Of a DNA stretch of 37,410 nt, positions 18,647 through 34,760 are shown in pieces; position 1 is the stretch's first letter; every line of letters starts with the position of its first letter. The notes under the pieces are model-generated. The model saw only the letters and a program-made list of their open reading frames with translations, searched no databases and was not told where the DNA came from. Where the stretch lies: contig JAJFVE010000188.1 of the NCBI GenBank assembly GCA_021371965.1, positions 1 through 37,410 of the forward strand, read 5' to 3'. The translations under genes were made by a program, and so were the position numbers. Source of the stretch: Planctomycetaceae bacterium (lineage in GTDB: Bacteria > Planctomycetota > Phycisphaerae > SM23-33).

Positions 18647-19411
18647 TCATCGTATCCCCATAAGAGGTATGGCAACGATAGCCAGAAAATCCTGCATGAA
18701 GTGCATCACGATTGGCGCCAGGAGGCTTTTCCTCCACAGAAACACCATTGCGAAAACGAGTCCCATGAACCCCACGGTCACCACGCCCGCTGAACCCTCG
18801 TAGCCATGGCCCAAGGCAAAGATGAAGGAGGACAATAGCACGGCGGCCACGCCGCTGCCGGTGATCTCGGCAAAGCGCAGGATCAGGTAACCTCGGAAGA
18901 TGGTTTCCTCGGCCAGGGCGACAACCACCACCATGACCGAGGCGAGCGCGAGTTCCACGCCTCCGTGCGGCGTGAGGTCAGCGGGCAACGATTTGGGGCC
19001 GGGGGACAAGCCGACAAATTTGGCAGCCTGTTCAACCCATCCGGCGGCAAAGAACGTCGGGATAAAGAGCATCATGCCCAGGCCGACGTCGCGCCAGCAG
19101 CACCGAAAGCTCCATCCGATCCGGCGTATCGGTTCACGGTTTCTCCAGATGAAAAACAGCACCAGGCTGACTAGGGCCATGTCGCGAAAGATGATAGCGG
19201 TTCCGCCCAGGGCGAAGCTCATGCCGCCCGGCCCTGCCACCCCGACCGAGACAAACGACAGCAGCAAAGACGGAAGGATGAGGAACACGAAGACGGAGAC
19301 TTCGAGCAATCGCTCCATCCTGCATCGACGCGTTCCATGCGGAGATAAGTCCTCATCGGCCTTGACCGTAAACCCGAATACCTTAAAGAGCGTAGCGGTC
19401 TTGCCGAACAT
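18647..19411 (-). CDS. CPBP family intramembrane glutamic protease
   Basis: This 254-residue polytopic protein belongs to the CPBP (CAAX protease and bacteriocin-processing, Abi) family. The three conserved motifs are visible: EETIFRG (E168, E169, R173), FALGH (H202) and HFMQD (H237, D241). These residues form the active site within the membrane. About seven hydrophobic segments are present, with a 35-residue soluble N-terminal extension. The ribosome site AAAGGAG (19425-19419, minus strand) is 7 nt from the ATG. It diverges from the HtrA gene, sharing a 115-bp control region. Substrates of bacterial CPBP members are mostly unknown; processing of a small membrane peptide is possible. Confidence 0.87.
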   Translation of the reverse strand: MFGKTATLFKVFGFTVKADEDLSPHGTRRCRMERLLEVSVFVFLILPSLLLSFVSVGVAGPGGMSFALGGTAIIFRDMALVSLVLFFIWRNREPIRRIGWSFRCCWRDVGLGMMLFIPTFFAAGWVEQAAKFVGLSPGPKSLPADLTPHGGVELALASVMVVVVALAEETIFRGYLILRFAEITGSGVAAVLLSSFIFALGHGYEGSAGVVTVGFMGLVFAMVFLWRKSLLAPIVMHFMQDFLAIVAIPLMGIR

Positions 19412-19430
19412 GTGTAATCTCCTTTGCTCT

Positions 19431-19478
19431 AATTCTATTGATGCCCCCGGTCTGCGGAGCGTTATCCTGCATAGAATT
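19431..19478. promoter_or_regulatory. Inverted repeat between divergent protease genes
   Basis: AATTCTAT (19431-19438) and ATAGAATT (19471-19478) are exact reverse complements 32 nt apart. Each presents TAGAAT, close to a -10 box, to the gene it faces. No clear -35 accompanies either, so an operator role is equally possible. Confidence 0.3.
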
Positions 19479-19526
19479 CCCGGCGTTTGGAGCTTGGTGT
19501 AGCTGAAACGGAAAAGGGGATATCCG

Positions 19527-21050
19527 ATGAAAGCGATTAATCGATGGTTGTCGGCGGGAGTGCTTGTCGCCGTAGTGGCTTATGCTGCAATCGACGGGCC
19601 GCGAATTGCCACGCGAATCGCCTTTGCGGTCACCCAGGGCCAAAATCAGGCCGCTCGCGAGCATCTGGCGACGCTGGCCAAAGGTGATACGTTGTCGCCT
19701 CTCTTCGTCGAAGTGGCCAAGGTGCTCAGGCCGGCTGTCGTCGAGGTCCGCGTCACCAAGAAGGTCAAGATGCAGGAGACCCCGGACATCAACCAGTTCT
19801 TTCAGCACTTCTTCGGAGATGAAGCGCCCTTCGGCCTGCCGCAATCTCCCGGCAAGGGTGCCAAGCCCCAGCCGCGGGAATACCTCCAGCGTGGTTTGGG
19901 CAGTGGCGTCGTGATCGATGCCAAGAATGGATATATCCTGACCAACTACCATGTCGTCGGCGGAGCCGATGAGACCCAGGTCGTATTGCCTGACGGGCGG
20001 ACGCTGAAGGTGGAATGGGCTCGTACGGACCCGATGACCGATCTGGCCATCGTTAAGGTGGGACCTACGGATCTGATCGAGGCCCCGCTGGGCGACAGCG
20101 ACGCGATGCAGGTGGGTGACTGTGTGTTGGCAATCGGTGCGCCTGAGGGACTGGAGCAGACGGTGACGGCCGGGATCATCTCGGCCAAGGGGCGCGTTAC
20201 CGACCATGCCAAAACGTATCAAAGTTTCATACAGACCGATGCTGCCATCAACCATGGCAATAGCGGTGGGCCGCTGGTTAACACCAAGGGCGAGGTTATT
20301 GGCATCAACACGGCCATCGTTTCGGAGAGCGGCGGCAATGAGGGTATTGGCTTTGCCATCCCCTCCAACATGGTCAAGAGCGTGATGACCCAACTTATCG
20401 AGAAGGGCAAGGTGACGCGGGGCTATCTGGGTGTAGCCATTCAGGGGGTGGACGAGAAGTTGGCCAAGAGCTTCCATCTTTCCAGCACCAAGGGCGCGCT
20501 GATTGCTTCGGTGACGCCCGACGGCCCGGCCGCCAAGGCGGGCTTAAAATCAGGCGATTTCATCGTGTCCGTGGCGGGCAAGCCGGTCGAGAACTCCAAC
20601 GAGTTGAGGAACCTGGTGGCCGGCCTGGAGGTTGGCAAGAGCGTTCCGGTAGAGTTCTACCGTGACGGCAAGAAGACCAGCGTAAGCGTGACCATAGAAA
20701 CTCAGCCAGCAAACATGTTCGCGGCTGGCGAAATGCCCGAAGGCGGGGAGACGACGGCCGGAAAGTTCGGCCTCCAGGTGCAGACTGTGACCAAGGAGTT
20801 GGCCCAGCAATACGGATACAAGACCACCCCCAAGGGCGTGGTCATTACGCAAGTCACTCCTGGTTCTTCCGCCGACAGTCAGGGTCTCAAGGAAGGCATG
20901 GTGATCACGCAGGTCCAGGACAAGGACATCGACACGGCCGAGCAGTTCAAGGAAGCGGTCTCAGCAAAAGAAGCGGCCGAGGGCGTGCGTCTACGAGTGA
21001 CCGATCCTTCAGGCATGACGCGGTTCGTGTTCCTGCCGCCCTCGAAGTAG
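19527..21050 (+). CDS. Do-like (HtrA/DegP) periplasmic serine protease
   Basis: This 507-residue protein has an N-terminal signal or anchor (about 6-22), a trypsin-like domain and two PDZ domains. The catalytic triad is H142 in TNYHVV, D172 in TDLAIVKV and S246 in GNSGGPL. PDZ1 starts near RGYLGVAIQGV (about 298-308) and PDZ2 near FGLQVQTVTKELA. HtrA proteases degrade or refold misfolded envelope proteins and switch activity through PDZ binding. The linker between strands carries the FFQHFFGDE region typical of the regulatory LA loop. AAAAGGGG shortly before the ATG is a good ribosome site. The gene diverges from the CPBP protease, so the two could respond to the same envelope signal. Confidence 0.93.
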   Translation: MKAINRWLSAGVLVAVVAYAAIDGPRIATRIAFAVTQGQNQAAREHLATLAKGDTLSPLFVEVAKVLRPAVVEVRVTKKVKMQETPDINQFFQHFFGDEAPFGLPQSPGKGAKPQPREYLQRGLGSGVVIDAKNGYILTNYHVVGGADETQVVLPDGRTLKVEWARTDPMTDLAIVKVGPTDLIEAPLGDSDAMQVGDCVLAIGAPEGLEQTVTAGIISAKGRVTDHAKTYQSFIQTDAAINHGNSGGPLVNTKGEVIGINTAIVSESGGNEGIGFAIPSNMVKSVMTQLIEKGKVTRGYLGVAIQGVDEKLAKSFHLSSTKGALIASVTPDGPAAKAGLKSGDFIVSVAGKPVENSNELRNLVAGLEVGKSVPVEFYRDGKKTSVSVTIETQPANMFAAGEMPEGGETTAGKFGLQVQTVTKELAQQYGYKTTPKGVVITQVTPGSSADSQGLKEGMVITQVQDKDIDTAEQFKEAVSAKEAAEGVRLRVTDPSGMTRFVFLPPSK

Positions 21051-21135
21051 CGCATGGTTACGCCGTGATCAGGAGACTCAACAGGTGAGACACTGCGTTG
21101 AGGGAGGCGGTCAAAGATCCCGCAATTGTGCCGGC

Positions 21136-21169
21136 GCCTACGGCAGCCGGTAGCTGGAATCCCGTAGGC
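21136..21169. repeat. Inverted repeat downstream of htrA
   Basis: GCCTACGG (21136-21143) and CCGTAGGC (21162-21169) form an 8-bp stem, with CAGCCGGTAGCTGG in the loop. There is no U-tract, so it is not a typical terminator. Part of the loop resembles the CAGTAGCCGG repeats. Confidence 0.4.
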
Positions 21170-21191
21170 ATCGCCAAAGATCTGGAACTGG

Positions 21192-22037
21192 ATGACGACC
21201 ATGACGCCGCTAGAGTTCATTCTGGCCACGTTCGCTGTATCCGTGGGGGCTGGGATCTTTGGGGCAGTGCTGGGGTTGGGCGGGGGAATCATCGTCGTGC
21301 CCGCCTTGACGCTACTGTTGCACGTTGATATCCGCTACGCCATAGGCGCCTCGATCGTCTCTGTGATCGCCACCTCTAGTGGAGCCGGCGCTGTATATGT
21401 GAAGGAAGGCTTGACCAACATCCGCGTCTCAATGCTTCTGGAAACTGCCACTACCAGCGGGGCCATCCTGGGGGCCTTTGTTGCGGGCATAGTACATCCG
21501 AAATGGCTATTCTTATTATTCGGCCTGATACTGAGCTATTCGGCGTTCCAGATGTGGCGCGGACCCCGCCATGTCACCTCGGGCGAAAGTCATGCCGATC
21601 TCTTGGTGCAGCGACTGTCACTTGGCGGATCGTACTTCGACCAGGCAGGGGGGGCGGAAGTTGTATATCATGCCAGACGGCCGAAAGCCGGGTTGCTGGT
21701 CAGTTCATTCGCCGGCGTCATCAGCGGACTGCTGGGGGTCGGAGGCGGCGTCATCAAAGTGCCTACCATGAATCTTATCATGGGCCTGCCGCTGAAGGTC
21801 GCCTCGGCCACCAGCAATTTCATGATCGGTGTGACGGCCGCAGCCAGCGCGGGCGTGTATTTCTATCGAGGGGACATCAATCCAATCATCGCCGCCCCAG
21901 TGGCCGTCGGCGTAGCCGCCGGGGCACTGATCGGGACGATTATCCTGCGGAGAATGCCGACGAAGATATTGCACATAGTCTTTACGGCCGTACTGCTGGC
22001 AGTTGCCGCCCAGATGCTGTGGAGGGGACTGACATGA
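21192..22037 (+). CDS. TauE/SafE family membrane transporter
   Basis: This 281-residue polytopic protein belongs to the TauE/SafE family, exporters or importers of sulfite, sulfoacetate and similar anions. The tandem glycine-rich motifs are visible: VGAGIFGAVLGLGGGIIVVP (18-37) in the first half and GVISGLLGVGGGVIKVPTMN in the second. This gives the two-fold repeat expected of about eight membrane segments. An ATG three codons downstream is a possible alternative start. The stop overlaps the start of the next gene by ATGA. A sulfatase gene lies nearby, so sulfur-anion handling is conceivable, but the substrate cannot be deduced. Confidence 0.87.
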   Translation: MTTMTPLEFILATFAVSVGAGIFGAVLGLGGGIIVVPALTLLLHVDIRYAIGASIVSVIATSSGAGAVYVKEGLTNIRVSMLLETATTSGAILGAFVAGIVHPKWLFLLFGLILSYSAFQMWRGPRHVTSGESHADLLVQRLSLGGSYFDQAGGAEVVYHARRPKAGLLVSSFAGVISGLLGVGGGVIKVPTMNLIMGLPLKVASATSNFMIGVTAAASAGVYFYRGDINPIIAAPVAVGVAAGALIGTIILRRMPTKILHIVFTAVLLAVAAQMLWRGLT

Positions 22038-22453
22038 GTCACCCCCCGCCGCTGCCGAGGGACATTAAGCCGCCCTTCAGGCGTGTCGAAATCTTCTTGA
22101 GCTATCTGCTTCGTACAGGCGTAGCGTTAAGCATGATGCTGGTACTGACTGGGGTGGTGCTCCTTTTCGTCAGGCACCCGGACGACCTGTCGCAAGCACG
22201 GAATCTTCCAGGACTCGTGGCTCCAGGCGCGGAATTCCCGCATACCGTCGGCCAGGTAATCCGCCAGTTTGACGGCGTCTCAGGGCGAGCGGTTGCGTCG
22301 CTGGGCCTTCTGGTGCTTATCGCCACACCGGTACTGCGTGTGGCCGTCTCTGTAGTGGCCTTTGCCCTTGAACGAGACTGGACATATGTCGCACTGACGA
22401 TGTTGGTACTGATCCTGCTCCTGTTATCTTTCCGTGTGGGCGGGGCAGGGTGA
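22034..22453 (+). CDS. DUF1634 membrane protein
   Basis: This 139-residue protein has three hydrophobic segments (about 26-46, 86-105 and 115-133) and the length of DUF1634 proteins. Members of this family are typically found next to TauE/SafE permeases, as here, where the genes overlap by 4 bp. It probably forms a small accessory subunit of the transporter. The ATG at 22034 is set by the ATGA overlap. The identification rests on topology and context more than on a sharp motif. Confidence 0.7.
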   Translation: MSHPPPLPRDIKPPFRRVEIFLSYLLRTGVALSMMLVLTGVVLLFVRHPDDLSQARNLPGLVAPGAEFPHTVGQVIRQFDGVSGRAVASLGLLVLIATPVLRVAVSVVAFALERDWTYVALTMLVLILLLLSFRVGGAG

Positions 22454-22535
22454 GCGAGGTTTCGATCAAGAATAAGGCCGCATGCGCACCATGCGAGAAA
22501 TCCGGCTGGGAGACAATGGGGTCAGGTGGCCAAGC

Positions 22536-22553
22536 GCTCAGCGGCCTCTGCGG
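22536..22553. repeat. Two-unit copy of the 9-bp repeat
   Basis: GCTCAGCGG (22536-22544) and CCTCTGCGG (22545-22553) both fit the N-CTC-N-GCG-N unit of the elements at 40-66 and 18483-18509. It lies between the convergent DUF1634 and sulfatase genes, 4 nt from the sulfatase stop codon. Confidence 0.45.
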
Positions 22554-22557
22554 CGAA

Positions 22558-24033
22558 TCATTCCTGATGTACGTACTGCCCCCAGCGGGCTTGGCCGAAG
22601 TGCATCTTCATCGCGGGCGAGTCGTACAGCGCCGGGCCTTGCACCGCGTCGGTGGCGTAGCTGCTTTCGGTCCGGTAGTTCAGCGTGAACAGGAGCAACC
22701 GCTCCATCAAGTCGGCGCGGACGGCCGCGTGTGCCGGGTCCTCGAACAGGTTGTACATCTCGCCCGGGTCGGCCTGCACGTCGTACAGTTCGTGCGCGCC
22801 GCAGTCGGCGTTGACGATCAGGCGGTGCTGCCGCGTGCGGACGGCCGAGACCTTGCCCGTGACGCAGAACTCGCAGAAGGCGGCGTCTTTGCCGGGCCGC
22901 TGCCCCGCGGCGATGGGCAGCACGTCCACGCCCTCGCGCCCGGGCGGTACGTCCACGCCGCACAGGCCGCACACCGTGGGGTACCAGTCGATGGTCTCGA
23001 TCAGCTCGTCGCACGTCGCGGCGGCCGGCCCGCCCGGCCAGCGCAGCAGGAACGGCACGCGGTGGAGCGACTCGTAGAGGCTCAGCCCCTTGAACAGCAG
23101 CCCGTGCTCGCCGGCGTAGTCGCCGTGGTCGGCGGTATAGAGGATGATCGTGTTGTCCAGTTCGCCCGAGGCTTCCAGGGCGGCGATCACGCGGCCGATC
23201 TCGTTGTCGATCTGCGTGATCAGCGCGTAGTACCCGCACAGGCCGCGCTTGAGCCGCTCCTGGGTGGCGGCCAGCGGATACCCGCTGCCGCGCAGCACCG
23301 CGTCGCGAATCGCCGCGGGCTTTGAAGCAAAACCGTTGACGAACAGGTCGGCGGCGCTGTCGGGCAGCACGATGTCCTTCGGATCGTACATGCGGAAGAA
23401 TTCCTCGGCCGCGTAGTCGCATCCGTGAGGGCGCTGGAAGCTGACCTGCGCGAAGAACGGGCGCGAGCGGTCGCGGCTGCCCAGGAAGTTGATCGCCTCC
23501 TGGCCGGTGAAATATTCGCACGACTGCTCGTAGGAGAGAAATGACGGCCGCGACGCCGGCTCGCCGGGGGTGGTCATCTCACGGTCCATCAGCTCGGCGG
23601 CGCCGGACTGGACGATCTGGCGGAAGTAGTGGCAGGACATCGGGTCGCCCGGGGCCACGTCGCCGAGGTTGTCGTAGCGGATGTGCTCGAAGCCTTCGCG
23701 GTCCCACAGCGGCACCATGTGGGCCTTGCCGAAGATCGCCGTCTGGTAGCCCGCGCGGCGGAACACGCACGCCAGCGTGTCGGGATTGCGCCGGTCGTAG
23801 AGATTGTTCATATTGCCGAAGAGCCCGTGCGTATGGCAGTACTGGCCGGTGATGAAGCTCAGCCGCGACGGGGCGCAGATGGGGTTGACCGTGTACGCGC
23901 GGCGGAAGTTGACGCCCGATGCGGCCAGGCGGTCGAGGTTGGGCGTGCGCACGTTGGGGTTGCCGCTGTAGCCGGTCGACTGCGTGTTGTGCTGGTCGCT
24001 CATCAGCCACAGGACGTTCGGGCGTTTGGCCAA
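22558..24033 (-). CDS. Sulfatase (formylglycine-dependent, S1 family)
   Basis: This 491-residue enzyme hydrolyses sulfate esters. The activation motif is CAPSR (C53-R57), in which the cysteine becomes formylglycine, followed by LSFITGQ. The N-terminal metal-site strand reads NVLWLMSDQHN, with D13 followed by Q rather than a second Asp, as in choline-sulfatase-like members. TADHGDYAGEHG (near the middle) provides further calcium ligands. No signal peptide is seen, so the enzyme is probably cytoplasmic. The TTG at 24033 was chosen because AGGAG lies 7 nt upstream and the protein then starts at the family's usual point; the open frame continues to another TTG at 24087. Confidence 0.87.
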   Translation of the reverse strand: MAKRPNVLWLMSDQHNTQSTGYSGNPNVRTPNLDRLAASGVNFRRAYTVNPICAPSRLSFITGQYCHTHGLFGNMNNLYDRRNPDTLACVFRRAGYQTAIFGKAHMVPLWDREGFEHIRYDNLGDVAPGDPMSCHYFRQIVQSGAAELMDREMTTPGEPASRPSFLSYEQSCEYFTGQEAINFLGSRDRSRPFFAQVSFQRPHGCDYAAEEFFRMYDPKDIVLPDSAADLFVNGFASKPAAIRDAVLRGSGYPLAATQERLKRGLCGYYALITQIDNEIGRVIAALEASGELDNTIILYTADHGDYAGEHGLLFKGLSLYESLHRVPFLLRWPGGPAAATCDELIETIDWYPTVCGLCGVDVPPGREGVDVLPIAAGQRPGKDAAFCEFCVTGKVSAVRTRQHRLIVNADCGAHELYDVQADPGEMYNLFEDPAHAAVRADLMERLLLFTLNYRTESSYATDAVQGPALYDSPAMKMHFGQARWGQYVHQE

Positions 24034-24091
24034 AGCAGTTCTCCTGAATAGGCTCTCGACTCTAACGCCGCAGCTGCGGTGGGTCAAATGA

Positions 24092-24123
24092 CAGTAGCCG
24101 GTGGTCAGTAGCCGGTAGCCGGT
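24092..24123. repeat. CAGTAGCCGGT short tandem repeat
   Basis: CAGTAGCCGGT occurs at 24092-24102 and 24106-24116, followed by AGCCGGT (24117-24123). It lies upstream of the sulfatase start and resembles the string at the end of the PQQ-propeller gene. Confidence 0.55.
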
Positions 24124-24270
24124 GAGGAATCAGCCGCCTGAATGACCGTGGGCATGCCCACTGCTAGAATTACACCAGGAATGTTGAAGACAGGCGGCGC
24201 GGTGATGTTGTGTGTGCTGATTGCCATTACAGACGCTCCCGTCGTCTTATATGCTGGAAAGGGCTACCTT

Positions 24271-24744
24271 GTGAGCATCGTCGTCAAGAGCACCGCGTTC
24301 GAGAACGGCCAGCCGATCCCCAGGAAGTACAGCCAGGACGGTCAGAACATTTCGCCGCCGCTGGAGTGGCAGGGCCTGCCGGAAGGCACGAAGGAACTGG
24401 CGCTGATCGTGGATGACCCCGACGCGCCGACGCCCCAGCCTTGGGTGCATTGGGTCATGTACAAGATCGCCCCCGGCGTCAAACACCTGCCCGAGGGCGT
24501 GAAGGCGGCCGACAAACCGCCTGAGCTTCATGGAGCGCTGCAAGGCGTGAATACGTCCAAGAACGCCGGATACGACGGCCCGGCCCCGCCCAAGGGGCAC
24601 GGCGTGCATCACTATCACTTCAAGCTCTACGCGCTGGATGCGCCGCTGAATCTGCCGCCGCGCCAGACCAAGGAGCAACTCCTGACCGCGATGAAGGGCC
24701 ACGTCCTGGGCGAGAGTGAGTTGATCGGCACGTACGAGCGATGA
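24271..24744 (+). CDS. YbhB/YbcL family PEBP-like protein
   Basis: This protein belongs to the bacterial phosphatidylethanolamine-binding (Raf kinase inhibitor-like) family, of unclear function. Typical features are DGQNISPPLEW, ALIVDDPDAP followed by WVHWV, and the later GPAPPKGHGVHHYHFKLYAL, which together form the anion-binding pocket. The GTG at 24271 gives 157 residues, the same size as E. coli YbhB, with GGAAAGGG 7 nt upstream. The frame also opens at ATG 24142, 24154 and 24178, and the extra residues include a hydrophobic stretch (VMLCVLIAITDAPVVLYAG). A secreted version is therefore possible. It is coupled by ATGA to the ribonucleotide reductase gene. Confidence 0.78.
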   Translation: MSIVVKSTAFENGQPIPRKYSQDGQNISPPLEWQGLPEGTKELALIVDDPDAPTPQPWVHWVMYKIAPGVKHLPEGVKAADKPPELHGALQGVNTSKNAGYDGPAPPKGHGVHHYHFKLYALDAPLNLPPRQTKEQLLTAMKGHVLGESELIGTYER

Positions 24745-26696
24745 TCGTCGACATCGACAAGTATGGCGTCTTTCAGTTGGACGAGGAGTTTTTGCAGGCA
24801 TACGTCGCCCGGCCGGTGCGGTGGGGCTTTGGCCCGCTGTCGTGGGCGACGTACAAGCGGACGTATAGCCGCGATGGCGAGAGCTGGTGGCAGACGTGCC
24901 GGCGCGTGATCGAAGGCATGTTCAGCGTTCAGAGGGCCCACTGCATGCGGGCGGGCCTGGCGTGGGACTCTGCCCGCGCGCTCCACGAGGCGCACGAGGC
25001 GTACGAGCGACTGTGGGCGTTCAAGTGGACCCCGCCGGGGCGCGGGCTGTGGATCATGGGCACGCCGTTCGTCTACGAGCGCGGCGGGGCGGCGCTGAAC
25101 AACTGCGGATTCGTCTCGACCAAAGATCTTGCGACGGACTTTTCCGGACCGTTCCTGTGGATGCTCCAGATGTCGATGCTTGGCGTGGGCGTGGGCTTTG
25201 ACACGCGCGGGCGAGGAAAGCTGGCCATTGTTGCCGCGCGGGTCGCCCAGGACGTACACATCATCGGCGACAGCCGCGAAGGCTGGGCCGGCGCCCTCGG
25301 ACGCCTGCTCAACGCGTACGTGGGGAAAGGCTCACTGCCGGCCGGCTGGGATTTTTCGCAGATCCGCCCGCACGGGTCCGCCCTGCGCAGCTTCGGCGGA
25401 TTCGCCAGCGGACCGGGGCCTCTGTCGAGAATGCTCGCCGACCTGCAGACGCTGCTGGGCAGCTACGCCGGCCGAAGGGTCGACTCGCGCTTGATCGTCG
25501 ACGCGATGAATCTCATCGGGCGCTGCGTGGTGGCCGGCGGCATCCGCCGCTCGGCGCAGATCGCCTTCGGCGAGGCCGACGACGAAGAGTTCATGGACCT
25601 CAAGCAGGACCGCAACAAGGTCCTGGAGTATCGCTGGGCGTCGAACAACTCCATCTTCGCCAGCGCGGGGATGGACTACTCGGCGGCGGTGCGGCGAACG
25701 GTGGCCACCGGCGAGCCGGGGTACATGTGGCTGGAGAACGCCCGAGCGTACGGCCGCATGGGCGACGAGCCCAACTGGCTCGACGCGGCGGCCGAGGGAT
25801 CGAACCCTTGCGTCGAGCAGACGCTGTGGGACCGCGAGCTGTGCTGCCTCGTCGAGACCTTTCCCGCCCACCACGAGAGCTTCGAGGACTACCAGCGGAC
25901 GCTGGCCGTGGCGTACAGGTACGCCAAGGCCGTCACGCTGGTGGAGACTGAAGACGCCGCCACCAACGCCGTCATGCTGCGCAACCGCCGCCTGGGCTGC
26001 TCGATGACCGGCGTGGTGCAGGCCATCGACAAGTTCGGCTACGGGGAGTTCTTCCGCTGGTGCGACCGGGCATATGCGTTCTTGCGGCGGCTGGACGAGG
26101 AGCATTCGGCCGCCCTTGCCGTGCCGCGGTCGATCAAGCTCACGTCGGTCAAGCCCTCGGGCACGGTGAGCCTGCTGGCGGGGGCGACGCCGGGGGTCCA
26201 CTGGGAGCACGCGCCGTATTACATCCGCCGCGTCCGCGTGACGATGGGCCACCCGCTGGTGGAGATGTGCCGCCGCAGCGGCTATCACGTTGAAGACGAC
26301 GTGTATTCGCAGAACACCGTGGTGGTGTCGTTTCCGGTTCACGTCGAGCGGCTGGGCCGCTGCAAGAGCGACGTGCCGCTGCTGGAGAAGGTCGACCTGG
26401 CCGCGCAGATGCAGCGGTTCTGGTCAGACACCCAGGTGAGCATCACCGCCGAGTTCGACCCCGATCGCGAGGGCGGGCAACTGCCCGGCCTGCTGCATGA
26501 CTACGAAAACCGCCTCAAGGCCGTCGTGTTCCTGCCTTCGCGCGGGCACGGGTACCAGCAGCCGCCGTATGAGCAGATCACCCGCAGCCAGTATGAGCGC
26601 ATCGCCGGCGGCCTGCGCCCGCTGCGGGGAGATCTCGATCACGAGCAGGAACTCGAAGCGCGCTTCTGCGACGGCGACCTGTGCGAGATGCCATGA
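24741..26696 (+). CDS. Adenosylcobalamin-dependent ribonucleotide reductase (class II, monomeric)
   Basis: This 651-residue enzyme reduces ribonucleotides (triphosphates in the best-known member) using B12. Landmarks match the Lactobacillus leichmannii enzyme: NNCGF (C122, like C119), NPCVEQ (C357 and E359, like C408 and E410), C368 at the same +11 spacing as C419, and a C-terminal redox pair C643/C648 in FCDGDLCEMP, like C731/C736. The chain is about 90 residues shorter than the Lactobacillus enzyme (739), with 54 of these missing between C122 and C357, where the known enzyme has its dimer-mimicking effector-binding insertion. It starts within the stop codon of the PEBP gene. Oxygen-independent chemistry would suit a facultative or anaerobic lifestyle. 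Confidence 0.88.
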   Translation: MIVDIDKYGVFQLDEEFLQAYVARPVRWGFGPLSWATYKRTYSRDGESWWQTCRRVIEGMFSVQRAHCMRAGLAWDSARALHEAHEAYERLWAFKWTPPGRGLWIMGTPFVYERGGAALNNCGFVSTKDLATDFSGPFLWMLQMSMLGVGVGFDTRGRGKLAIVAARVAQDVHIIGDSREGWAGALGRLLNAYVGKGSLPAGWDFSQIRPHGSALRSFGGFASGPGPLSRMLADLQTLLGSYAGRRVDSRLIVDAMNLIGRCVVAGGIRRSAQIAFGEADDEEFMDLKQDRNKVLEYRWASNNSIFASAGMDYSAAVRRTVATGEPGYMWLENARAYGRMGDEPNWLDAAAEGSNPCVEQTLWDRELCCLVETFPAHHESFEDYQRTLAVAYRYAKAVTLVETEDAATNAVMLRNRRLGCSMTGVVQAIDKFGYGEFFRWCDRAYAFLRRLDEEHSAALAVPRSIKLTSVKPSGTVSLLAGATPGVHWEHAPYYIRRVRVTMGHPLVEMCRRSGYHVEDDVYSQNTVVVSFPVHVERLGRCKSDVPLLEKVDLAAQMQRFWSDTQVSITAEFDPDREGGQLPGLLHDYENRLKAVVFLPSRGHGYQQPPYEQITRSQYERIAGGLRPLRGDLDHEQELEARFCDGDLCEMP

Positions 26697-26716
26697 ATAA
26701 TTTCCGCCGGGCCGAT

Positions 26717-26745
26717 TTGAGAATGGCGCCGTGCGATCCTATGAT
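26717..26745 (+). promoter_or_regulatory. Near-consensus sigma-70 promoter for a small RNA
   Basis: TTGAGA (26717-26722) and TATGAT (26740-26745) are each one mismatch from consensus and separated by exactly 17 nt. The predicted start (about 26752) coincides with the first base of the long hairpin below. It begins 21 nt after the reductase stop codon, and the next plus-strand gene is 3.7 kb away. Confidence 0.6.
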
Positions 26746-26751
26746 AGTAAT

Positions 26752-26893
26752 GGAGCAGGTGAAAGAGGGAGGGAAATCGACCCCTCATTCACATGAGGAT
26801 CGATCTCAAGCACCTGTTTCCACGAGGCCAAGGTTCTCCTCGGTTGATCAAGGTAAAACTTGGTCAGTCCTAATCCACCTTGGCTGCTTTTTT
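26752..26893 (+). ncRNA. Candidate structured small RNA, about 142 nt
   Basis: Domain 1 (26752-26821) is a long imperfect hairpin. GGA pairs with TCC at the base, CAGGTG (26756-26761) with CACCTG (26811-26816), then ATCGA with TCGAT, and CCTCAT with ATGAGG around the loop TCAC (26789-26792). The two stems are separated by an asymmetric internal loop, purine-rich on its 5' side (AAAGAGGGAGGGAA, 26762-26775) against six bases on the other side. Domain 2 (26827-26893) is a two-tier stem ending in a U-tract. An alternative pairing CGAGG (26823-26827) with CCTCG (26838-26842) would disturb domain 2. I find no SRP, 6S, tmRNA, RNase P or familiar riboswitch signature. A 65-codon frame crosses the region, but no ribosome site supports it. 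Confidence 0.55.
26827..26893 (+). terminator. Two-tier intrinsic terminator of the small RNA
   Basis: GCCAAGGT (26827-26834) pairs with ACCTTGGC (26877-26884). Inside, TGATCAAG (26845-26852) pairs with CTTGGTCA (26859-26866, one G-U). The outer stem is followed by TGC and six T (26888-26893). Confidence 0.65.
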
Positions 26894-26992
26894 GCGCGCA
26901 TGTCGCGGGGAGAGCGGCGGGGAGTGTCGGTCTTTTGATGAATCTTCAACTCAATGCAGAGCGTCCTTCAACGTCTCGTTAGATTTCTTTGT

Positions 26993-28624
26993 TTAATCCT
27001 CCAATATCGCACTGCCTGAGGTCTTGACGACGTTGGCGCGGATGGCGGCTAAGAGGTCTTCGGCTGGACCGCCTTTGCTGACGTAGGCCTTGGCGCCGGC
27101 GTGGCGCATCTTGGCGGCCATATCCGACTCATCGTGCATCGACAGGCCGATGATGCAGATCTCCGGCTGATGGGCGATGATCTCGGCGGTGGCCTCGATG
27201 CCGTTCATGCCGGGCATCGATATGTCCATGATGATCGCGTCGGGACGCGCGCTTTGGGCCAGTTCGATAGCGGTCTTGCCGTCGGCGGCCTCGCCGACGA
27301 TTTCGATATCGGGCTCTTCGCCCAGCAGGGCGGCCAGGCCTTCGCGCATGACCTTGTGATCGTCGACCAGCAGCACGGTGATGCGCTTGCCCTGGCGCTG
27401 CGCCAGGGTCGACGTCTGAGGCGCCGCCGAGGTTGGCGAAACCACGACCTTGGCGGCGGGGTTCTTGGCCAGCGGGGCGGTCAGCACGACGGTACTGCCG
27501 CGGCCGGGCGAGCTGTCGATGGTCAGCGAGCCGCCCAGCAGTTCGATGCGCTGGGCGATGCTGAAAAGACCGAACCCGCCCGTCGAACCGCCGGCGGCGC
27601 GTGTGGCGGCGACATCGAACCCGACGCCCCGGTCGGTGACGGTGACCATGATGACGTCCCCGGTGCTTCGCAGCGAGACGTCGGCCTGCTGGGCCTGCGA
27701 GTGCCGCGCGACGTTGAGCAGCAGTTCGCGTGCGGCCGTGAACAGAAAGACCCGTAGCGGCTCGATGGGCTCGGCCAGAACGCCATCGGCGCGAACCTGC
27801 ACGTCGACGCCATGCATGGTCTGCATCTGGCGGGCGAGCCACCCCAAAGCCGCCGCCAGATCGGCTTCGTAAACGATGAGCGGGCTGAGATCCATCGCCA
27901 GGACGCGCGAGGCCTCGATCGAATGGGCCAGGAGGGCGTCGACCTGCGAGAGAGCGTCTTTGACGGGCCGGTCGTGGGCGCGGTTTCGCGCGGCCGTCAG
28001 GCTGAGCTTGGCCCCGACGAGGGCCTGCTGGAGGTTGTCATGAAGGAGGACCGCCAGGCGGCGGCGTTCACGCTGCTCGGACTGGTGAACCTCCAGGGCC
28101 ATCGCCTGGAGATGGCCTGCGCGGCAGTGGAGCTGGCAGTTGAGAGCGGCCAACTGGCGCTGGGCCTGGTGGAGGCGCGTGACGTCTTCCAAGGCGAACA
28201 ACAGCAGTTCCACCTGTCCGCGCTGGTCGATCAGCGGCGTGAGCGTCCAGTTCCAGTACGTCGTGCCCCACTCGGGATGGTCGGGAAAGTCGAACGGCTT
28301 GGCGTCGGTGCGGAAGGGCCGGCCGGTGCGGACGACGTCGCGGAAGATCGCCTCGTTCTCCTGGTGCGGGTAAAGGGCGAAGTGGTTGAGTCCGGCAAAA
28401 TCCTCCACATCTTTCTGACAGGCGTGGGCGTAGGCGTCGTTGACGCGGACGAAATTGAAATCGCGATCGAGGATCACCAGCGGCGTCGGTGAATGCCCAA
28501 AGAACCCCTCCAGGGTGCGCGACTGGCGGCGCAGCGACGCGAGGTCTTGGCCTGATTCGGTTTTGCGGCCTGCTCGGACCTCCCCTTTCCGGGTCTTAGG
28601 CCTGCCTCGGTTAGGGGTAGGCAT
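26993..28624 (-). CDS. Hybrid histidine kinase: PAS, HisKA_3, ATPase, receiver
   Basis: This 543-residue protein has a PAS sensor (about 40-150, with PTPLVILDRDFNFVRVNDAY), a NarL-type dimerisation domain with the phospho-acceptor motif LLHDNLQQAL (H195), an HATPase domain (ARELLLNVARHSQ, DRGVGFD, GGFGLFSI) and a C-terminal receiver domain with D467 in IIMDISMPGMNG. HisKA_3 kinases normally signal to receiver/LuxR-HTH partners. Here the receiver is fused, but no DNA-binding domain follows, so a separate output protein or phosphorelay is needed. No membrane segment is present, implying a cytoplasmic signal. The ATG at 28624 has AAGGA 5 nt upstream; the codon at 28639 lacks one. The gene converges on the small RNA. 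Confidence 0.88.
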   Translation of the reverse strand: MPTPNRGRPKTRKGEVRAGRKTESGQDLASLRRQSRTLEGFFGHSPTPLVILDRDFNFVRVNDAYAHACQKDVEDFAGLNHFALYPHQENEAIFRDVVRTGRPFRTDAKPFDFPDHPEWGTTYWNWTLTPLIDQRGQVELLLFALEDVTRLHQAQRQLAALNCQLHCRAGHLQAMALEVHQSEQRERRRLAVLLHDNLQQALVGAKLSLTAARNRAHDRPVKDALSQVDALLAHSIEASRVLAMDLSPLIVYEADLAAALGWLARQMQTMHGVDVQVRADGVLAEPIEPLRVFLFTAARELLLNVARHSQAQQADVSLRSTGDVIMVTVTDRGVGFDVAATRAAGGSTGGFGLFSIAQRIELLGGSLTIDSSPGRGSTVVLTAPLAKNPAAKVVVSPTSAAPQTSTLAQRQGKRITVLLVDDHKVMREGLAALLGEEPDIEIVGEAADGKTAIELAQSARPDAIIMDISMPGMNGIEATAEIIAHQPEICIIGLSMHDESDMAAKMRHAGAKAYVSKGGPAEDLLAAIRANVVKTSGSAILED

Positions 28625-28731
28625 AGCATTCCTTCGCATACAACGTACAAACTTTCCAAAATTGTATACACGCCCCTATGTTCATCTCAGAAAATTCCGG
28701 GCGTCTTCATACGACCAACTTGATCGGAGGA

Positions 28732-29757
28732 TCACAACAACTTGTGCACAGGGGCCTTATCATTGCCGGTGGCATGCAGGAAACGCCGGACGATGAGGCG
28801 GTCGAGTTTGCTCTGCGCCGTGCCCTCGGGCAAGGGCATGGCAATCTGCCCGCCGGCCATGCTGCGATGCCCGCCGCCGGTGCCCTTGTGCAGGACGATG
28901 TGGCGAATGACGACATCGGCGCGGCCGTCGGGCAGGATCGTGCGAAGACTCAGCAGCACTCGCGAGCCATCGTATCCCCAGCACAGCGACCACTCGGCCT
29001 GTTCGTGGCGCAGGAGCAGGTCGGCCACTTCGGCGATCATGTCGGCGTTGTCGACCGTTCCGAGATTGCTGTAGATGCACTTGCCGGCCAGGTTCGCCCC
29101 GGCCAGCGCCGTCACCAGCACGCGGTAGTATTCGGTGGGCTCCTCGCCGCGCTGGATGGTGCCCAGGATGCGCTTGTTGGCCAGGGGGTACAACTCGCCA
29201 TAGGCGAGTTTGTCCGCTGCGGTGGCCTCGCGGCCGAAGTCTTGGGTGTCGCTCTGGATCCCGTACAGCAATGCCGTGGCCAGCGGGGCCTCGGGGGTCA
29301 GACCGGCGGCCTTGAGATATTCCCAGAGGATGGTGGAGGAGGCGCCGTAACGGCTTCGGATATCGAAGAACCGGGCGCGTCGCGTTTCGTCGTGCAGGGG
29401 ATGGTGGTCGATGACGATCTGGGGGACGATGCCCTGGGGCAGGGAGTTGTTGCCCAGGCCCGGCTGCGTGTCGACGGTGGCGATGACGTCGAATCGCGAG
29501 GGCTCGATCTGCGCGATGGGGCGCACGTTGGCGTCGAGGTATCGCATCAGGGCGCGGTTCTCCGCCCGGCCGACGCTGCCGCCGCTGGTCAGCGTGCACT
29601 GCACGTTGGCGAGGTGATGCCCGAGCTTCCGCAGCGCCATCGCCGCGGCCAGGGCGTCGGGGTCGGGGTTGTCCTGCAGGACGATCATCAGCGAAGTCTT
29701 GCCCGCCAGCAGGCTTCGCAGATCGACCAGCTTTCGCGATGTTTGAGTCGGGCGCAT
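28732..29757 (-). CDS. DHH/DHHA1 phosphoesterase (NrnA-like)
   Basis: This 341-residue protein has the DHH phosphoesterase core: DNPDPDALA (29-37), VDTQ (95-98) and VIDHHP (115-120), which provide the two-metal site. A C-terminal DHHA1 domain follows, with GTGGGHRSMAGG. NrnA-type enzymes degrade short oligoribonucleotides and dephosphorylate pAp; others in the family cleave cyclic di-AMP. The first motif lacks the usual leading histidine (QDNPD in place of HxNPD), so the metal site may differ. AGGTGA precedes the ATG. It lies between the kinase and a DUF5661-like gene, all on the same strand with gaps of about 110 nt. Confidence 0.82.
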   Translation of the reverse strand: MRPTQTSRKLVDLRSLLAGKTSLMIVLQDNPDPDALAAAMALRKLGHHLANVQCTLTSGGSVGRAENRALMRYLDANVRPIAQIEPSRFDVIATVDTQPGLGNNSLPQGIVPQIVIDHHPLHDETRRARFFDIRSRYGASSTILWEYLKAAGLTPEAPLATALLYGIQSDTQDFGREATAADKLAYGELYPLANKRILGTIQRGEEPTEYYRVLVTALAGANLAGKCIYSNLGTVDNADMIAEVADLLLRHEQAEWSLCWGYDGSRVLLSLRTILPDGRADVVIRHIVLHKGTGGGHRSMAGGQIAMPLPEGTAQSKLDRLIVRRFLHATGNDKAPVHKLL

Positions 29758-29871
29758 GGCTTATGTCACCTGGGCGCCATGGCGGCCGGCGCGCAGCCGC
29801 CGTGTCCCCGAAGCTTTCCGCGAGATGGCGGTTGGGGAACGGCCGCCAGGGCACCCCTCGTGGACGCGACT

Positions 29872-30312
29872 TTATCCGTTGGACAGCTTCTTGGCTTCGC
29901 GCTGGGCCAGGTCGATCCGGGCCTGGGCGAGGCGCATGGAATAATCCTGCAGTTTGGCGGCGCCGGCGGCCGTGATCGACTTCATCAAGTCGCCCTCGAG
30001 TTCGGCGATCTCGAGTCGGCTGTAGTAGTCGAGCGTTTCCTTGAGGTGGGCCAGCACGATCTTGCCGGTGAGGATGGGGTGGTTGTTGGTGACGTTGGCG
30101 TCGGGGAATCGCGTGCCGTGTTCGAGCTCGACTTCCAGCCCGCGGCGGAAGTCTTCCGGGTCGATGCGCTCTTCGACGCGCATCTCGCCCAGGATGATGC
30201 GGGCCTCGTCGAGGGTCACTCTTCCGTCGGCGATGGTGGTCCAGTCGCGGATCTTCAACTGCCTGCAGACGCTGGCGACTTCCTCGGGCGTGATGTATTG
30301 CGGCAGATTCAT
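29872..30312 (-). CDS. DUF5661-like protein
   Basis: This 146-residue protein resembles the DUF5661 family, whose function is not known. Recognisable pieces are EDFRRGLEVELEHG, VTNNHPILTGKIVLAHLKE and a C-terminal charged helix (ARIDLAQREAKKLSNG). The conserved glutamate/histidine pairs could bind metal, but this is a guess. The ATG at 30312 has AAAGGA five nt upstream, deciding it over 30348. It is soluble with no signal peptide. It precedes the DHH phosphoesterase on the same strand. Confidence 0.6.
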   Translation of the reverse strand: MNLPQYITPEEVASVCRQLKIRDWTTIADGRVTLDEARIILGEMRVEERIDPEDFRRGLEVELEHGTRFPDANVTNNHPILTGKIVLAHLKETLDYYSRLEIAELEGDLMKSITAAGAAKLQDYSMRLAQARIDLAQREAKKLSNG

Positions 30313-30376
30313 GCGTGTCCTTTCAAATGGCTGCGACATTGTATCCATAATAGCGCCGCGGTGGGAAGAGTGTGTG

Positions 30377-30404
30377 ACCTATTACGGCGGCGACTAAAAT
30401 AGGT
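30377..30404. promoter_or_regulatory. Inverted repeat abutting the RND operon ribosome site
   Basis: ACCTATT (30377-30383) and AATAGGT (30398-30404) form a perfect 7-bp inverted repeat with a 14-nt spacer. The downstream arm touches the ribosome site AGGAG (30405-30409). It could be a repressor operator or a hairpin that hides the ribosome site. Confidence 0.35.
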
Positions 30405-30414
30405 AGGAGCTTAT

Positions 30415-31638
30415 ATGCGTCGGAAGAAACTTCTTTGCGGCGGGCTGCGCTTGCATGTCGGCGGACTTGTGACCGCAGCCGTCCTGGCCGCGGCAGGATG
30501 CAGTCCTCGCCAGGCGCCGTCGCCGCCGCCGGCCGTGCCGGTCAGCGTGGCCACGGTCATGGTGGCCGACACGCCCGTGCAGGTGCACACCATCGGCACG
30601 GTTACGGCGTATTCGTCGGTGGTGGTCCGCTCGCAGATCGCCGGGCCGATTGTCGAGGTGCACGTCGTCGAGGGATCGCTGGTCGACAAGGGGCAACTGC
30701 TCTTCGGGGTCGACCCGCGTCCGGCGCAGGCGTCGCTGGCCCAGGCGCAGGCGGCATTGGCCAAGGACAGCGGACAATTGGAGTTCGCCAAACGTGAGTT
30801 GCAGCGCACAGTCTTGATGAATCAGAAGGGGGCGGCCACGCTGGATGAGGTCGATACCGCCAAGACCGCCGTGCGCACGCTGACCGATTCCACCAAGGTG
30901 GACCAGGCGGCCGTGGAAAGCGCCAAGCTGCAACTGGCGTACTGCTACATCTATGCCCCCATCGAGGGGGTCGCCGGCGAGGTGACGATCAAGACCGGCA
31001 ACGTCGTGGCGATCCACGACACGGCGCTGCTGACGCTTAACCAGATCCATCCGATCTATGTCACCTTCACCTTGGCGCAGCGGCATCTCGATGAAATCCG
31101 CCGCTACCAGCACTCCAGCGGCGCCCTGCCGCTGCAGGCGTACATGGCCGACCGCACGCAGCCGCCGTCGCTGGGGGCGCTGACGTTCATCAACAACACG
31201 GTCGATCCGGCCACGGGAACCATCCTGCTCAAGGGGACCTTCGCCAACACCGACAACCGCCTCTGGCCCGGTCAGTTCGTGGACGTGGCGCTGACGCTGA
31301 CGGTCCAGCCCGGCGCCGTGCTGGTTCCCTCGCGGGCGGTCCAGGCCGGCCAGAACGGCACGTTCGTGTTCGTCATCGACAGCCGTCTCAAGGCCCGCAT
31401 GCAACCGGTCGAGGTGGACCGCACGCAGGACGATCAGAGCATCATCGCCAAGGGTCTCTCCGGCGGAGAGACGGTCGTAGTCGACGGGCAGTTGCGCCTG
31501 GTTGACGGCTTGACTGTGCGGATCCTGCCCGAGGTGATGCCCCAGGGCGCCGCCAGCCGGCCCGGCGCCTCCAGCCGGGCAGCGTCGTCTGCGGCGGCAT
31601 CGAGCCTGCCGGCGCCGGCAGGCGGAGGCGAGAAATGA
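30415..31638 (+). CDS. RND efflux periplasmic adaptor (MFP) lipoprotein
   Basis: This 407-residue protein is the membrane-fusion subunit of an RND pump. A lipobox LAAAGC places the acylated cysteine at C29, so the protein is probably tethered to a membrane. The biotinyl-lipoyl-like hairpin region (SQIAGPIVEVHVVEGSLVDK, about 73-92), a coiled-coil section (about 100-155) and a beta-barrel with TVDPATGTILLKGTFAN follow the MdtA/AcrA order. The tail is a low-complexity Ala/Ser/Pro stretch. It is translationally coupled to the permease gene by an ATGA overlap. No outer-membrane TolC-type gene is nearby. Substrate is unknown. Confidence 0.92.
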   Translation: MRRKKLLCGGLRLHVGGLVTAAVLAAAGCSPRQAPSPPPAVPVSVATVMVADTPVQVHTIGTVTAYSSVVVRSQIAGPIVEVHVVEGSLVDKGQLLFGVDPRPAQASLAQAQAALAKDSGQLEFAKRELQRTVLMNQKGAATLDEVDTAKTAVRTLTDSTKVDQAAVESAKLQLAYCYIYAPIEGVAGEVTIKTGNVVAIHDTALLTLNQIHPIYVTFTLAQRHLDEIRRYQHSSGALPLQAYMADRTQPPSLGALTFINNTVDPATGTILLKGTFANTDNRLWPGQFVDVALTLTVQPGAVLVPSRAVQAGQNGTFVFVIDSRLKARMQPVEVDRTQDDQSIIAKGLSGGETVVVDGQLRLVDGLTVRILPEVMPQGAASRPGASSRAASSAAASSLPAPAGGGEK

Positions 31639-34600
31639 ACCTGCCCGAGCTGTGCATCCGCCGGCCGGTGATGACCACGCTGATGATGGCCGGACTGCTG
31701 CTGGTGGGCGTGATCAGCTACCGCGACCTGCCCGTCAGCGACTTGCCCAACGTCGATTTCCCCACCATCCTGGTTTCCGCCGCGTTGCCCGGGGCCAGCC
31801 CCGAGACCATGGCCTCGGCGGTCGCCACGCCGCTCGAAAAGCAGTTCACCACCATCGCGGGGCTGGCGTCGATGTCCTCATCGAGCCAACTGGGCAGCAC
31901 GCAGATCACGCTGCAGTTCGACCTGTCTCGCAGCATCGACGCGGCGGCGCTGGACGTGCAGGCGGCTATTTCGCAGGCCGGGGGCCAACTCCCGCCCGAG
32001 CTGCCCAATCCGCCCTCGTTCCGCAAGGTCAACCCGGCGGATCAACCGATCCTCTACATCGCCCTGACCAGCCCGACGCTGCCGGTCTGGACGCTGGACG
32101 AATACGGCGAGACGCTGATGGCCCAGCGCATCAGCACCATCTCCGGCGTGGCGCAGGTGGTGGTTTTCGGCGCGCAGAAATACGCCGTCCGCATCCGCGC
32201 GAATCCCTCGCTGCTGGCCAACATCAACCTGAGCATCGACGAAGTCGCCCAGGCGGTGCAGGAGGGAAACGTCACGCTGCCCACCGGCGTGCTCTACGGT
32301 CCGCACAAGGCCTTCACCATCGAGGCCACCGGGCAGCTCAACGACGCGGCCGCCTACCGACCGCTGATCGTCGCGTATCGCGGCGGCGCCGTCGTGCGGC
32401 TGCAAGACGTCGCCACGGTCTTCGACAGCGTCGAGAACGACACGACCGCCGCCTGGTACTGCACGCGCCAAAGCCAGCAGCGGTCTGTGATCCTGGCGAT
32501 CCAGCGCCAGCCGGGCACCAACACGGTCGAGGTGGCCGGCGCCGTCAAGAAACTGCTGCCGACCTTCCAGGCGCAACTGCCCACCTCCGTCTCGCTGCAC
32601 ATGCTGTATGACCGCTCGCAGGCGGTCGAGGCATCGGCCAACGACGTGCAGGTCACGCTGCTGCTGACGCTGGCTCTGGTGGTGGCGGTGATCTTCCTGT
32701 TCCTGCGCAGCGTCGCCGCGACGATCATTCCCAGCCTGACGCTGCCGATGTCCATCATCGCGACCTTCGCCGTGATGTACCTGCTGAACTACAGCCTGGA
32801 CAACCTCTCGCTGATGGCCCTGACGCTGTCGGTGGGGTTCGTCGTCGACGACGCCATCGTCATGCTCGAAAATATCGTCCGCCACATGGAGATGGGCAAG
32901 CCCCGCCTGCAGGCGGCGCTGGAGGGCTCGCGAGAAATCGGCTTCACCATCATCTCGATGACCATCTCGCTCTCGGCGGTCTTCATCCCCGTGTTGTTCA
33001 TGGGCGGTATCGTCGGGCGGCTGTTCCGCGAGTTCGCCGTCACCATCGGCGCGGCTGTGCTGATCTCCGGGTTCGTCTCGCTGACGCTGACGCCGATGAT
33101 GTGCAGCCGCTTCCTGCGCCCGCCGCAGAGCGGTCGCCGCGGCCGCCTGTACGCCGCCGGCGAGCGGGCCTTCGAACGCATCGTCGGCCTCTACGGACGC
33201 ACGCTCAGGCCGGTGCTGGCCCACCGCCTGATCACCGTGCTGGTCTCGCTGGCGGTGCTGGCGGGCACCTTCTGGCTGTTTGTGGCCGTGCCCAAGGGCT
33301 TCCTGCCCAGCGAAGACCGCTCGCAGGTGTTCTGCTACGTGCAGGCGTCCGAGGGCATCTCGTACGAGTCGATGTTCGCCCACCAGCAGGCCGTCAACGA
33401 CGCCATCCAGCAGTTCAGTTTCGTCGACTCCTTCATGTCCAGCGCCGGCGGGCGAGGGGGCTTCGGCGCGCTCAACACCGGATTCATCTTCATCCGCCTC
33501 AAGCCGCCCAGCCAACGCGAGGCGTCGGCCGACCAGATCGTCCAGGTGCTTCGCCGCTCGCTGTCGGACGTTCCGGGGGTCGAGGTCTTTCCCCAGAATC
33601 CGCCGATCATCTCCGTCGGCGGGCAGCTCACCAAGAGCCAGTACCAGTACACGATCCAGGGCCCCGACACCACCGCCCTGTACCAGTACGCCCAGAAGCT
33701 CGAGGCCCGCCTGCGCGGACGCCCCGGGTTCCAGGATGTCACCAGCGACCTGCAGATCAAGAATCCGCAGGTCACCGTGCAGATCGACCGCGACAAGGCC
33801 CGCGCGTACGGCCTCAACGCCCGGCAGATCGAGACGACGCTGTTCAACGCCTACGCCTCGCGCCAGATCTCGACCATCCTGGCGCCCAACAACCAGTACC
33901 AGGTGATTCTCGAATCGCTGATCCCGTACCAGCAGTACCCCAGCGACCTGCGCCTGATCTATACTCGCTCGTCCAACGGGCCGCTGGTGCCGCTGTCGGC
34001 CGTCGCGACGCTCACCGAGGGCGTGGGCCCGCTGACGATCAACCACCTCGGGCAATTGCCCTCGGTGACGATCTCGTTCAACCTCCCGCCGGGAAGTTCG
34101 CTGGGCCCGGCCGTGGCGGAGGTGCAGCGGCTGGCCAGCGACCTGCCGGCGACGATGTCCACGAGTTTCCAGGGGACGGCGCAGGCGTTCCAGTCGTCGC
34201 AGTCGGGCATGCTGCTGCTGATCGCCGTGGCGGTCTTGGTGATCTACCTCGTGCTGGGCATCTTGTACGAGAGCTTCATCCACCCCATCACGATTCTGAC
34301 GGCCTTGCCGTTTGCGGGCTTCGGCGCGCTGGCCGCCCTGGCGCTGACGGGGACCGACCTGTCGCTCTATGCGTTCGTGGGCATCATCATGCTGGTGGGC
34401 CTGGTGAAGAAGAACGGGATCATGATGATCGACTTCGCCATCGAGGCCCAGCGCCGCGAGGGAAAGAGCCCCCACGACGCGATCTACGAGGCCTGCCTGA
34501 TCCGCTTTCGCCCGATTATGATGACGACGGTGGCGGCCCTGATGGCCGGACTGCCCATCGCCCTGGGCGGCGGGATCGGCGCCGACAGCCGCCGCCCGCT

Positions 34601-34748
34601 CGGCATCGCCGTCGTCGGCGGGCTGATATTCAGCCAAACCCTGACGCTCTACGTCACGCCGGTCTTCTATCTGTTATTTGAACGCCTGCGCACCTGGCGC
34701 CGACGGGGAAAGCAACCCCAAGGCACGCTCCAGGGAAAAGAGCTCTGA
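31635..34748 (+). CDS. RND efflux permease (AcrB/MdtB-like)
   Basis: This 1037-residue inner-membrane pump has the size and duplicated layout of hydrophobe/amphiphile RND permeases: TM1 near residues 10-30, a large periplasmic loop, TM2-6, a second loop and TM8-12. The proton-relay aspartates lie in LSVGFVVDDAIVMLENIVRH (TM4) and the lysine in VGLVKKNGIMMIDF (TM10). PAVAEVQRL and the funnel-like loops fit the porter domains. It works with the preceding adaptor to export drugs or lipophilic compounds using the proton gradient. The pair stands between divergent or convergent unrelated genes and looks like a two-gene operon. Confidence 0.93.
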   Translation: MNLPELCIRRPVMTTLMMAGLLLVGVISYRDLPVSDLPNVDFPTILVSAALPGASPETMASAVATPLEKQFTTIAGLASMSSSSQLGSTQITLQFDLSRSIDAAALDVQAAISQAGGQLPPELPNPPSFRKVNPADQPILYIALTSPTLPVWTLDEYGETLMAQRISTISGVAQVVVFGAQKYAVRIRANPSLLANINLSIDEVAQAVQEGNVTLPTGVLYGPHKAFTIEATGQLNDAAAYRPLIVAYRGGAVVRLQDVATVFDSVENDTTAAWYCTRQSQQRSVILAIQRQPGTNTVEVAGAVKKLLPTFQAQLPTSVSLHMLYDRSQAVEASANDVQVTLLLTLALVVAVIFLFLRSVAATIIPSLTLPMSIIATFAVMYLLNYSLDNLSLMALTLSVGFVVDDAIVMLENIVRHMEMGKPRLQAALEGSREIGFTIISMTISLSAVFIPVLFMGGIVGRLFREFAVTIGAAVLISGFVSLTLTPMMCSRFLRPPQSGRRGRLYAAGERAFERIVGLYGRTLRPVLAHRLITVLVSLAVLAGTFWLFVAVPKGFLPSEDRSQVFCYVQASEGISYESMFAHQQAVNDAIQQFSFVDSFMSSAGGRGGFGALNTGFIFIRLKPPSQREASADQIVQVLRRSLSDVPGVEVFPQNPPIISVGGQLTKSQYQYTIQGPDTTALYQYAQKLEARLRGRPGFQDVTSDLQIKNPQVTVQIDRDKARAYGLNARQIETTLFNAYASRQISTILAPNNQYQVILESLIPYQQYPSDLRLIYTRSSNGPLVPLSAVATLTEGVGPLTINHLGQLPSVTISFNLPPGSSLGPAVAEVQRLASDLPATMSTSFQGTAQAFQSSQSGMLLLIAVAVLVIYLVLGILYESFIHPITILTALPFAGFGALAALALTGTDLSLYAFVGIIMLVGLVKKNGIMMIDFAIEAQRREGKSPHDAIYEACLIRFRPIMMTTVAALMAGLPIALGGGIGADSRRPLGIAVVGGLIFSQTLTLYVTPVFYLLFERLRTWRRRGKQPQGTLQGKEL

Positions 34749-34760
34749 GCCCCGCGCCGG

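Follow-up and report, generated by a model that had tools for sequence, protein, structure and literature searches.

The window, that is, the whole stretch of 37,410 nt that was analysed, contains a 296-nt intergenic gap (51% GC) which runs from the stop of a B12-dependent ribonucleotide reductase gene (26696) to the stop of a convergent hybrid histidine kinase gene on the minus strand (26993). The predicted RNA discussed here sits between these two genes (Table 1). The reductase scores 324.8 bits against TIGR02505, just below the curated cut-off of 340.05, and after the identical P0121, a protein whose record names a Phycisphaerae MAG, its next nearest relative is P0122, with 86% identity. 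The kinase is identical to P0001. As P0122 and P0003 appear to lie on one 5,399-bp contig, the reductase-kinase pair has apparently been kept in a relative. Reductase relatives at 63-71% identity carry record names of the Brocadiaceae, Gemmatimonadetes, Myxococcota, Opitutaceae, Gammaproteobacteria and Acidobacteriota, a spread drawn from four loci of related reductases together with the best 120 of 7995 proteins; judged by these sequences, the compact B12-dependent reductase seems to form a subfamily distributed across phyla.

Table 1. Predicted features of the reductase-kinase gap and the genes on its two sides (positions in the window).
Feature	Position	Strand	Basis or remark
Upstream gene, compact (651 aa) adenosylcobalamin-dependent ribonucleoside-triphosphate reductase	24741..26696	+	Pfam RNR_Alpha, RNR-II insertion domain
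Sigma70-type promoter, -35 TTGAGA (26717-26722), 17-nt spacer, -10 TATGAT (26740-26745)	26717..26745	+	10/12 consensus match
Predicted small RNA, 142 nt	26752..26893	+	Position relative to promoter and U-tract; fold energy against shuffles
5' domain, two-stem hairpin with CAGGTG/CACCTG base, CCTCAT/ATGAGG tip and partly open purine-rich side loop	26752..26820	+	
Purine-rich loop AAAGAGGGAGGGAAA with two ANGGA motifs	26762..26776	+	Unpaired probabilities 0.2-1.0
3' domain and terminator stem, with an outer stem of 9 bp (core GCCAAGGT/ACCTTGGC) enclosing an inner hairpin	26826..26885	+	
Exposed CU-rich loop UCUCCUC, Shine-Dalgarno-complementary, proposed seed	26835..26841	+	Unpaired probability 0.9-1.0
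Second open loop UAAUCC, on the opposite side of the terminator domain	26871..26876	+	
U-tract (six T in DNA), predicted 3' end	26888..26893	+	
Downstream convergent gene, PAS / histidine kinase / receiver hybrid	26993..28639	-	Pfam; relatives P0002 (79%), P0003 (73%)

The original prediction had described a promoter with each box one base off the consensus and a 17-nt spacer, a start at the foot of a hairpin and a second domain ending in a U-tract 142 nt further on, with promoter, folded body and terminator in register in the convergent gap, and analysing the sequence it is possible to see that all of these positions agree. Both boxes are present, the 5' hairpin begins exactly at 26752, the start predicted from the promoter, and the U-tract closes the element at 26893. 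Scanning both strands of the whole window with spacers of 15-19, we located two promoters of this 10/12 quality, at 26717 and 3373, the expectation at spacer 17 being about 0.13 per window in 30 first-order Markov sequences; a 10/12 promoter appeared on the + strand in 1.8% of 4000 Markov copies of the gap. Promoter-like sites matching 9/12 show a mild excess over shuffles, both in positions 1-19000 (5 against 3.0, sd 1.5) and in positions 18500-37410 (6 against 2.3, sd 1.4). The sequence would thus provide a promoter of its own in register with the RNA start, as expected of an intergenic bacterial sRNA gene.

The other 10/12 promoter-like site, 3373-3401 (GTGACA-17-GATAAT), lies ahead of a glycosyltransferase gene at 3612. 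The promoter region in the gap is complementary to the 5' hairpin at two places, 26709-26718 with 26774-26783 (10 nt at 90%) and 26734-26740 with 26796-26802 (7 nt at 100%). Pairing of this kind could have an effect only when transcription reads through from the reductase gene, and in the minimum-energy fold of 26601-26893 it is the 5' hairpin that is kept and not the promoter-region pairings.

The 142-nt body has a fold energy of -55.3 kcal/mol, and for 26752-26900 (-56.5 kcal/mol, z -3.37) none of 200 shuffles was equally stable. In a rougher test, in which tiles of 142 nt were taken every 47 nt on both strands with 30 shuffles each, 5 of the 1586 tiles had a z at or below the -4.48 obtained there for the element, which was placed exactly while the tiles were not; these are the tiles at 36755, 1552, 5077, 36708 and 4983, all on the + strand. 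Pair probabilities reach 0.99 in the CAGGTG/CACCTG stem, 0.93-1.0 in GCCAAGGT/ACCTTGGC and 0.63-0.82 in CCTCAT/ATGAGG, with eight pairs at probability 1.0 in the inner hairpin of the 3' domain, and both domains are nearly unchanged in the minimum-energy fold of the longer transcript 26601-26893. The opposite strand of 26752-26893 folds nearly as well (z -3.22, 0/200 shuffles), so that fold energy alone cannot choose the strand; the promoter and the U-tract do. Cofolding of two copies of the RNA gives -119.3 kcal/mol, compared with -110.6 for two single molecules, a gain which is expected of a hairpin able to open into a duplex and from which we draw nothing further.

Elsewhere in the window, the lowest tile fold z belongs to a perfect inverted repeat at 36788-36819, with 15-nt arms AAAAGCCCCTGGGTT / AACCCAGGGGCTTTT, which is perhaps a two-way terminator. 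The second lowest comes from a hairpin at 1556-1589, also with 15-nt arms (AAGCGGGCAGCCCTG / CAGGACTGCCCGCTT), and a strong fold signal at 4983-5218 falls within an aminotransferase reading frame (4811-6058).

At the 3' end of the element the outer stem, whose 8-nt core pairs with a probability of 0.93-1.0, is followed by GC and then by six U, and this arrangement points to a Rho-independent terminator such as an sRNA gene is expected to carry. The terminator scan allows loops of 3-8 only and for this reason omits the 3' hairpin, listing instead a weaker site at 26915-26929; around the gap it returns 3 terminator-like sites against 2.9 in shuffles, which is no excess. In the interval from the reductase stop (26696) to the RNA start (26752) the scans, with these loop sizes, listed no terminator-like site, and consequently the same 3' hairpin probably ends the reductase mRNA too. 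A small RNA gene, as first proposed, is still the best reading of the locus, but the description of that gene as stand-alone holds only in part, its terminator hairpin being probably common with the reductase mRNA.

The main alternative follows from the same hairpin: the gap might hold nothing else than a terminator for the reductase mRNA, at 26826-26893, with the promoter match and the 5' hairpin being due to chance, and no separate RNA would then be made. It is in keeping with this view that the 3' domain contributes most of the fold signal, with a z of -4.20, or -5.51 once trimmed to its stem, compared with -2.65 for the 5' domain; when the latter is trimmed to 26757-26814 it refolds differently, its z becomes -1.34 and 19/200 shuffles are equally good. 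The lack of a listed terminator-like site in 26696-26752 and the presence of strong terminator-like hairpins elsewhere in the window, e.g. 36788-36819, also speak for it. Nevertheless, such a promoter is met in just 1.8% of the simulated gaps, its predicted start coincides with the first base of the 5' hairpin, and the full 5' hairpin is equalled by only 1 of 200 shuffles. We consider it unlikely, on balance, that the terminator is all that the gap contains, and likely that the promoter gives rise to a separate RNA.

A frame on the + strand stays open between 26597 and 26938 and offers four ATGs, at 26693, 26723, 26741 and 26750. The ATG at 26693 overlaps the reductase stop (ATGA), and the frame 26693-26938 spans the whole RNA element. 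An overlooked gene for a small protein of up to 81 aa could be imagined here, in an arrangement resembling a coupled operon, its ATG lying over the reductase stop. The codon usage of this frame is, however, non-coding from every start: log-odds from the four ATGs are -0.36 to -0.41 per codon, and the longest of the gap's minus-strand frames, with 68 codons, gives -0.38, while 2000 pieces of 82 codons, drawn from eight genes of the window that had also trained the table, were never under +0.07. Furthermore, the 62-aa part of the + frame had no candidate homologue in a large protein collection that includes both flanking proteins, and the 81-aa form gave no match in NCBIfam and in Pfam only a 9-residue repeat at E 0.063. 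A protein gene is thus highly improbable, and the element is non-coding, with a small reserve; the earlier view that the gap holds no supported protein stands despite the open frame.

The original prediction had further suggested that an alternative CGAGG/CCTCG pairing and the purine loop might form a switching or binding surface. For the pairing this was not borne out, since its probability is 0 in the full RNA. In the modelled growing transcripts it amounts to 0.29 at 26845, 0.12 at 26855 and 0.23 at 26865, rises to 0.66 at 26875, the highest of the lengths sampled, remains at 0.60 at 26880 and falls to 0 at 26885, once the 3' arm is complete. On this model CGAGG/CCTCG is a folding intermediate, and a stable switch is rejected. 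The next gene lies on the opposite strand and a switch would consequently have no downstream gene to control; with the alternative pairing at 0 in the full RNA, a riboswitch or attenuator is likewise rejected.

The purine loop, which is only partly open, contains two ANGGA motifs (26766 and 26770). Through these GGA motifs the RNA might be thought to sequester a CsrA/RsmA-type protein. Known CsrA sponges display many GGA in hairpin loops. The 142 nt of the element have just four GGA, two of which are mostly within stems, and the many exposed copies typical of such sponges are not seen; we regard sequestration of this kind as very unlikely.

In the 3' domain, the UCUCCUC loop is exposed and complementary to an AGGAG-like Shine-Dalgarno sequence. 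In Staphylococcus, RsaE and RNAIII pair with Shine-Dalgarno sequences by means of C/U-rich loops. The element is like them in presenting UCUCCUC exposed in a stable hairpin domain, and unlike them in the absence of an Rfam match and in that its targets are only predicted. Possible targets were examined at the start regions of 24 genes, that is, 25 predicted genes minus one whose upstream region is cut by the window end, with starts taken from the longest frames and hence uncertain. GGAG, GAGG or AGGA is present in 9 of these 24 regions and AGGAGA in one, and the full 7-nt loop complement GAGGAGA in none of them. Analysing duplex formation, the binding of UUCUCCUCG has a mean of -4.84 kcal/mol at the 24 starts and of -3.57 kcal/mol at 2000 random places (one-sided p 0.0098), and values at or below -7.5 kcal/mol are reached at 7/24 starts, compared with 7.9% of random places. 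For the second open loop, CCUAAUCCA, p at the starts is 0.0017, yet none of the 24 reaches -7.5 kcal/mol, and the 16S anti-Shine-Dalgarno control behaves similarly (p 0.031). With the purine loop, tip loop, AU loop and reverse complement there is no enrichment at the 24 starts (p 0.997, 0.28, 0.999 and 1, respectively); seven sequences were tried in all, and none of the p values given for them is corrected. The enrichment at starts is weak and generic, and the duplex results would fit, without proving it, an RNA that hides ribosome-binding sites.

The original prediction had been unable to match the element to a known RNA family, and the Rfam covariance-model search, now run, is in agreement: there was no match at the gathering cut-off, and the best sub-threshold hit in the gap, on the opposite strand, scores 16.7 bits where the cut-off is 49.1. 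No match of the gap was obtained by blastn against phages and plasmids, and three DNA patterns searched in viral contigs were not found there. The kinase was found neither in viral contigs nor, at 1e-60, in plasmids, and in a search of 194 genomes it gave hits in 6, with at best 42% identity. Related reductases (63-66% identity) occur at four loci, in records named Paceibacterota, Opitutaceae, Gemmatimonadetes and Bradymonadaceae; when the gap was compared with these four loci by blastn, only matches of 11-16 nt appeared, that is, no similarity.

A single-sequence model of the element served as the RNA model in the further comparisons. In the window and 22 loci it found the element itself, with 179.9 bits, and one match of 9.5 bits (E 1.9) inside the reductase gene of L004, which is a chance match; six viral loci with distant reductases (44-47%) gave no match. 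Among relatives of G002 there was one match in 189 (E 0.037), a bare inner hairpin of different sequence, and in a comparison with seven further loci this hairpin (L023) was the only match to the model (22.3 bits) and stands alone. In the phylum of G003 the model matched 0 of 150 genomes. None of the bacterial groups compared is planctomycete by record names or 16S signatures, and absence of the RNA there therefore says little about its conservation. The 16S pattern matched in 37/61 genomes of the phylum of G003, all with the ordinary GGCAGCAG form, and in 9/40 genomes among the relatives of G001; six 16S pieces from the latter we take, from their signature, to be Kiritimatiellae-like. G053 is found among the relatives of G002 and also in the phylum of G001. 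PSCyt2, as a planctomycete marker, was present in 10/40 genomes and is not decisive.

The promoter, the folded body, the U-tract terminator, the non-coding codon usage and the absence from Rfam make a small RNA gene the best reading of the element. Thus, we propose that RNA polymerase with the housekeeping sigma factor would start at about 26752 and that transcription would end at about 26893, past the GC-rich 3' hairpin; the resulting RNA of 142 nt may have its 5' end protected by the 5' hairpin. The RNA would most likely act in trans, the exposed UCUCCUC loop pairing with Shine-Dalgarno sequences and blocking translation. From the features of the locus we infer all three of these elements, transcription, the terminator shared with the reductase mRNA and the action in trans. 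To this explanation, with the locus read as the gene of a small non-coding RNA in a member of the Phycisphaerae, we assign a probability of about 0.58. The seed mechanism, when considered on its own, is doubtful.

The element is like the intergenic sRNAs treated in PMC9438474, which are 100-200 nt long and non-coding and have their own promoter and a U-tract terminator; unlike them, it has no known homologue, target or chaperone. The same review (PMC9438474) names sRNAs that share an mRNA 3' end and have their own promoter, and the element resembles this type in lying directly after the reductase gene with a terminator that is probably common, although its promoter is placed after the stop codon and not inside the coding sequence. 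A far more speculative possibility, to which we attach little probability, is that the element represents a new family of small RNAs in the Phycisphaerae, built of two domains and co-terminal with the B12-dependent reductase gene, which would lower the translation of many mRNAs through the CU-rich loop and so, for example, tie translation to dNTP supply. Until conservation, expression or a target emerges, the element has to be seen as a gene of an ordinary kind. Nonetheless, planctomycete small RNAs have been little charted, and with its exact predicted ends this candidate lends itself to direct testing. No planctomycete sRNA was named in the titles or abstract openings turned up by a literature search, and Table 1 of PMC9029176 gives 8 distinct annotated sRNAs in the whole PVC group against 345 in Proteobacteria.
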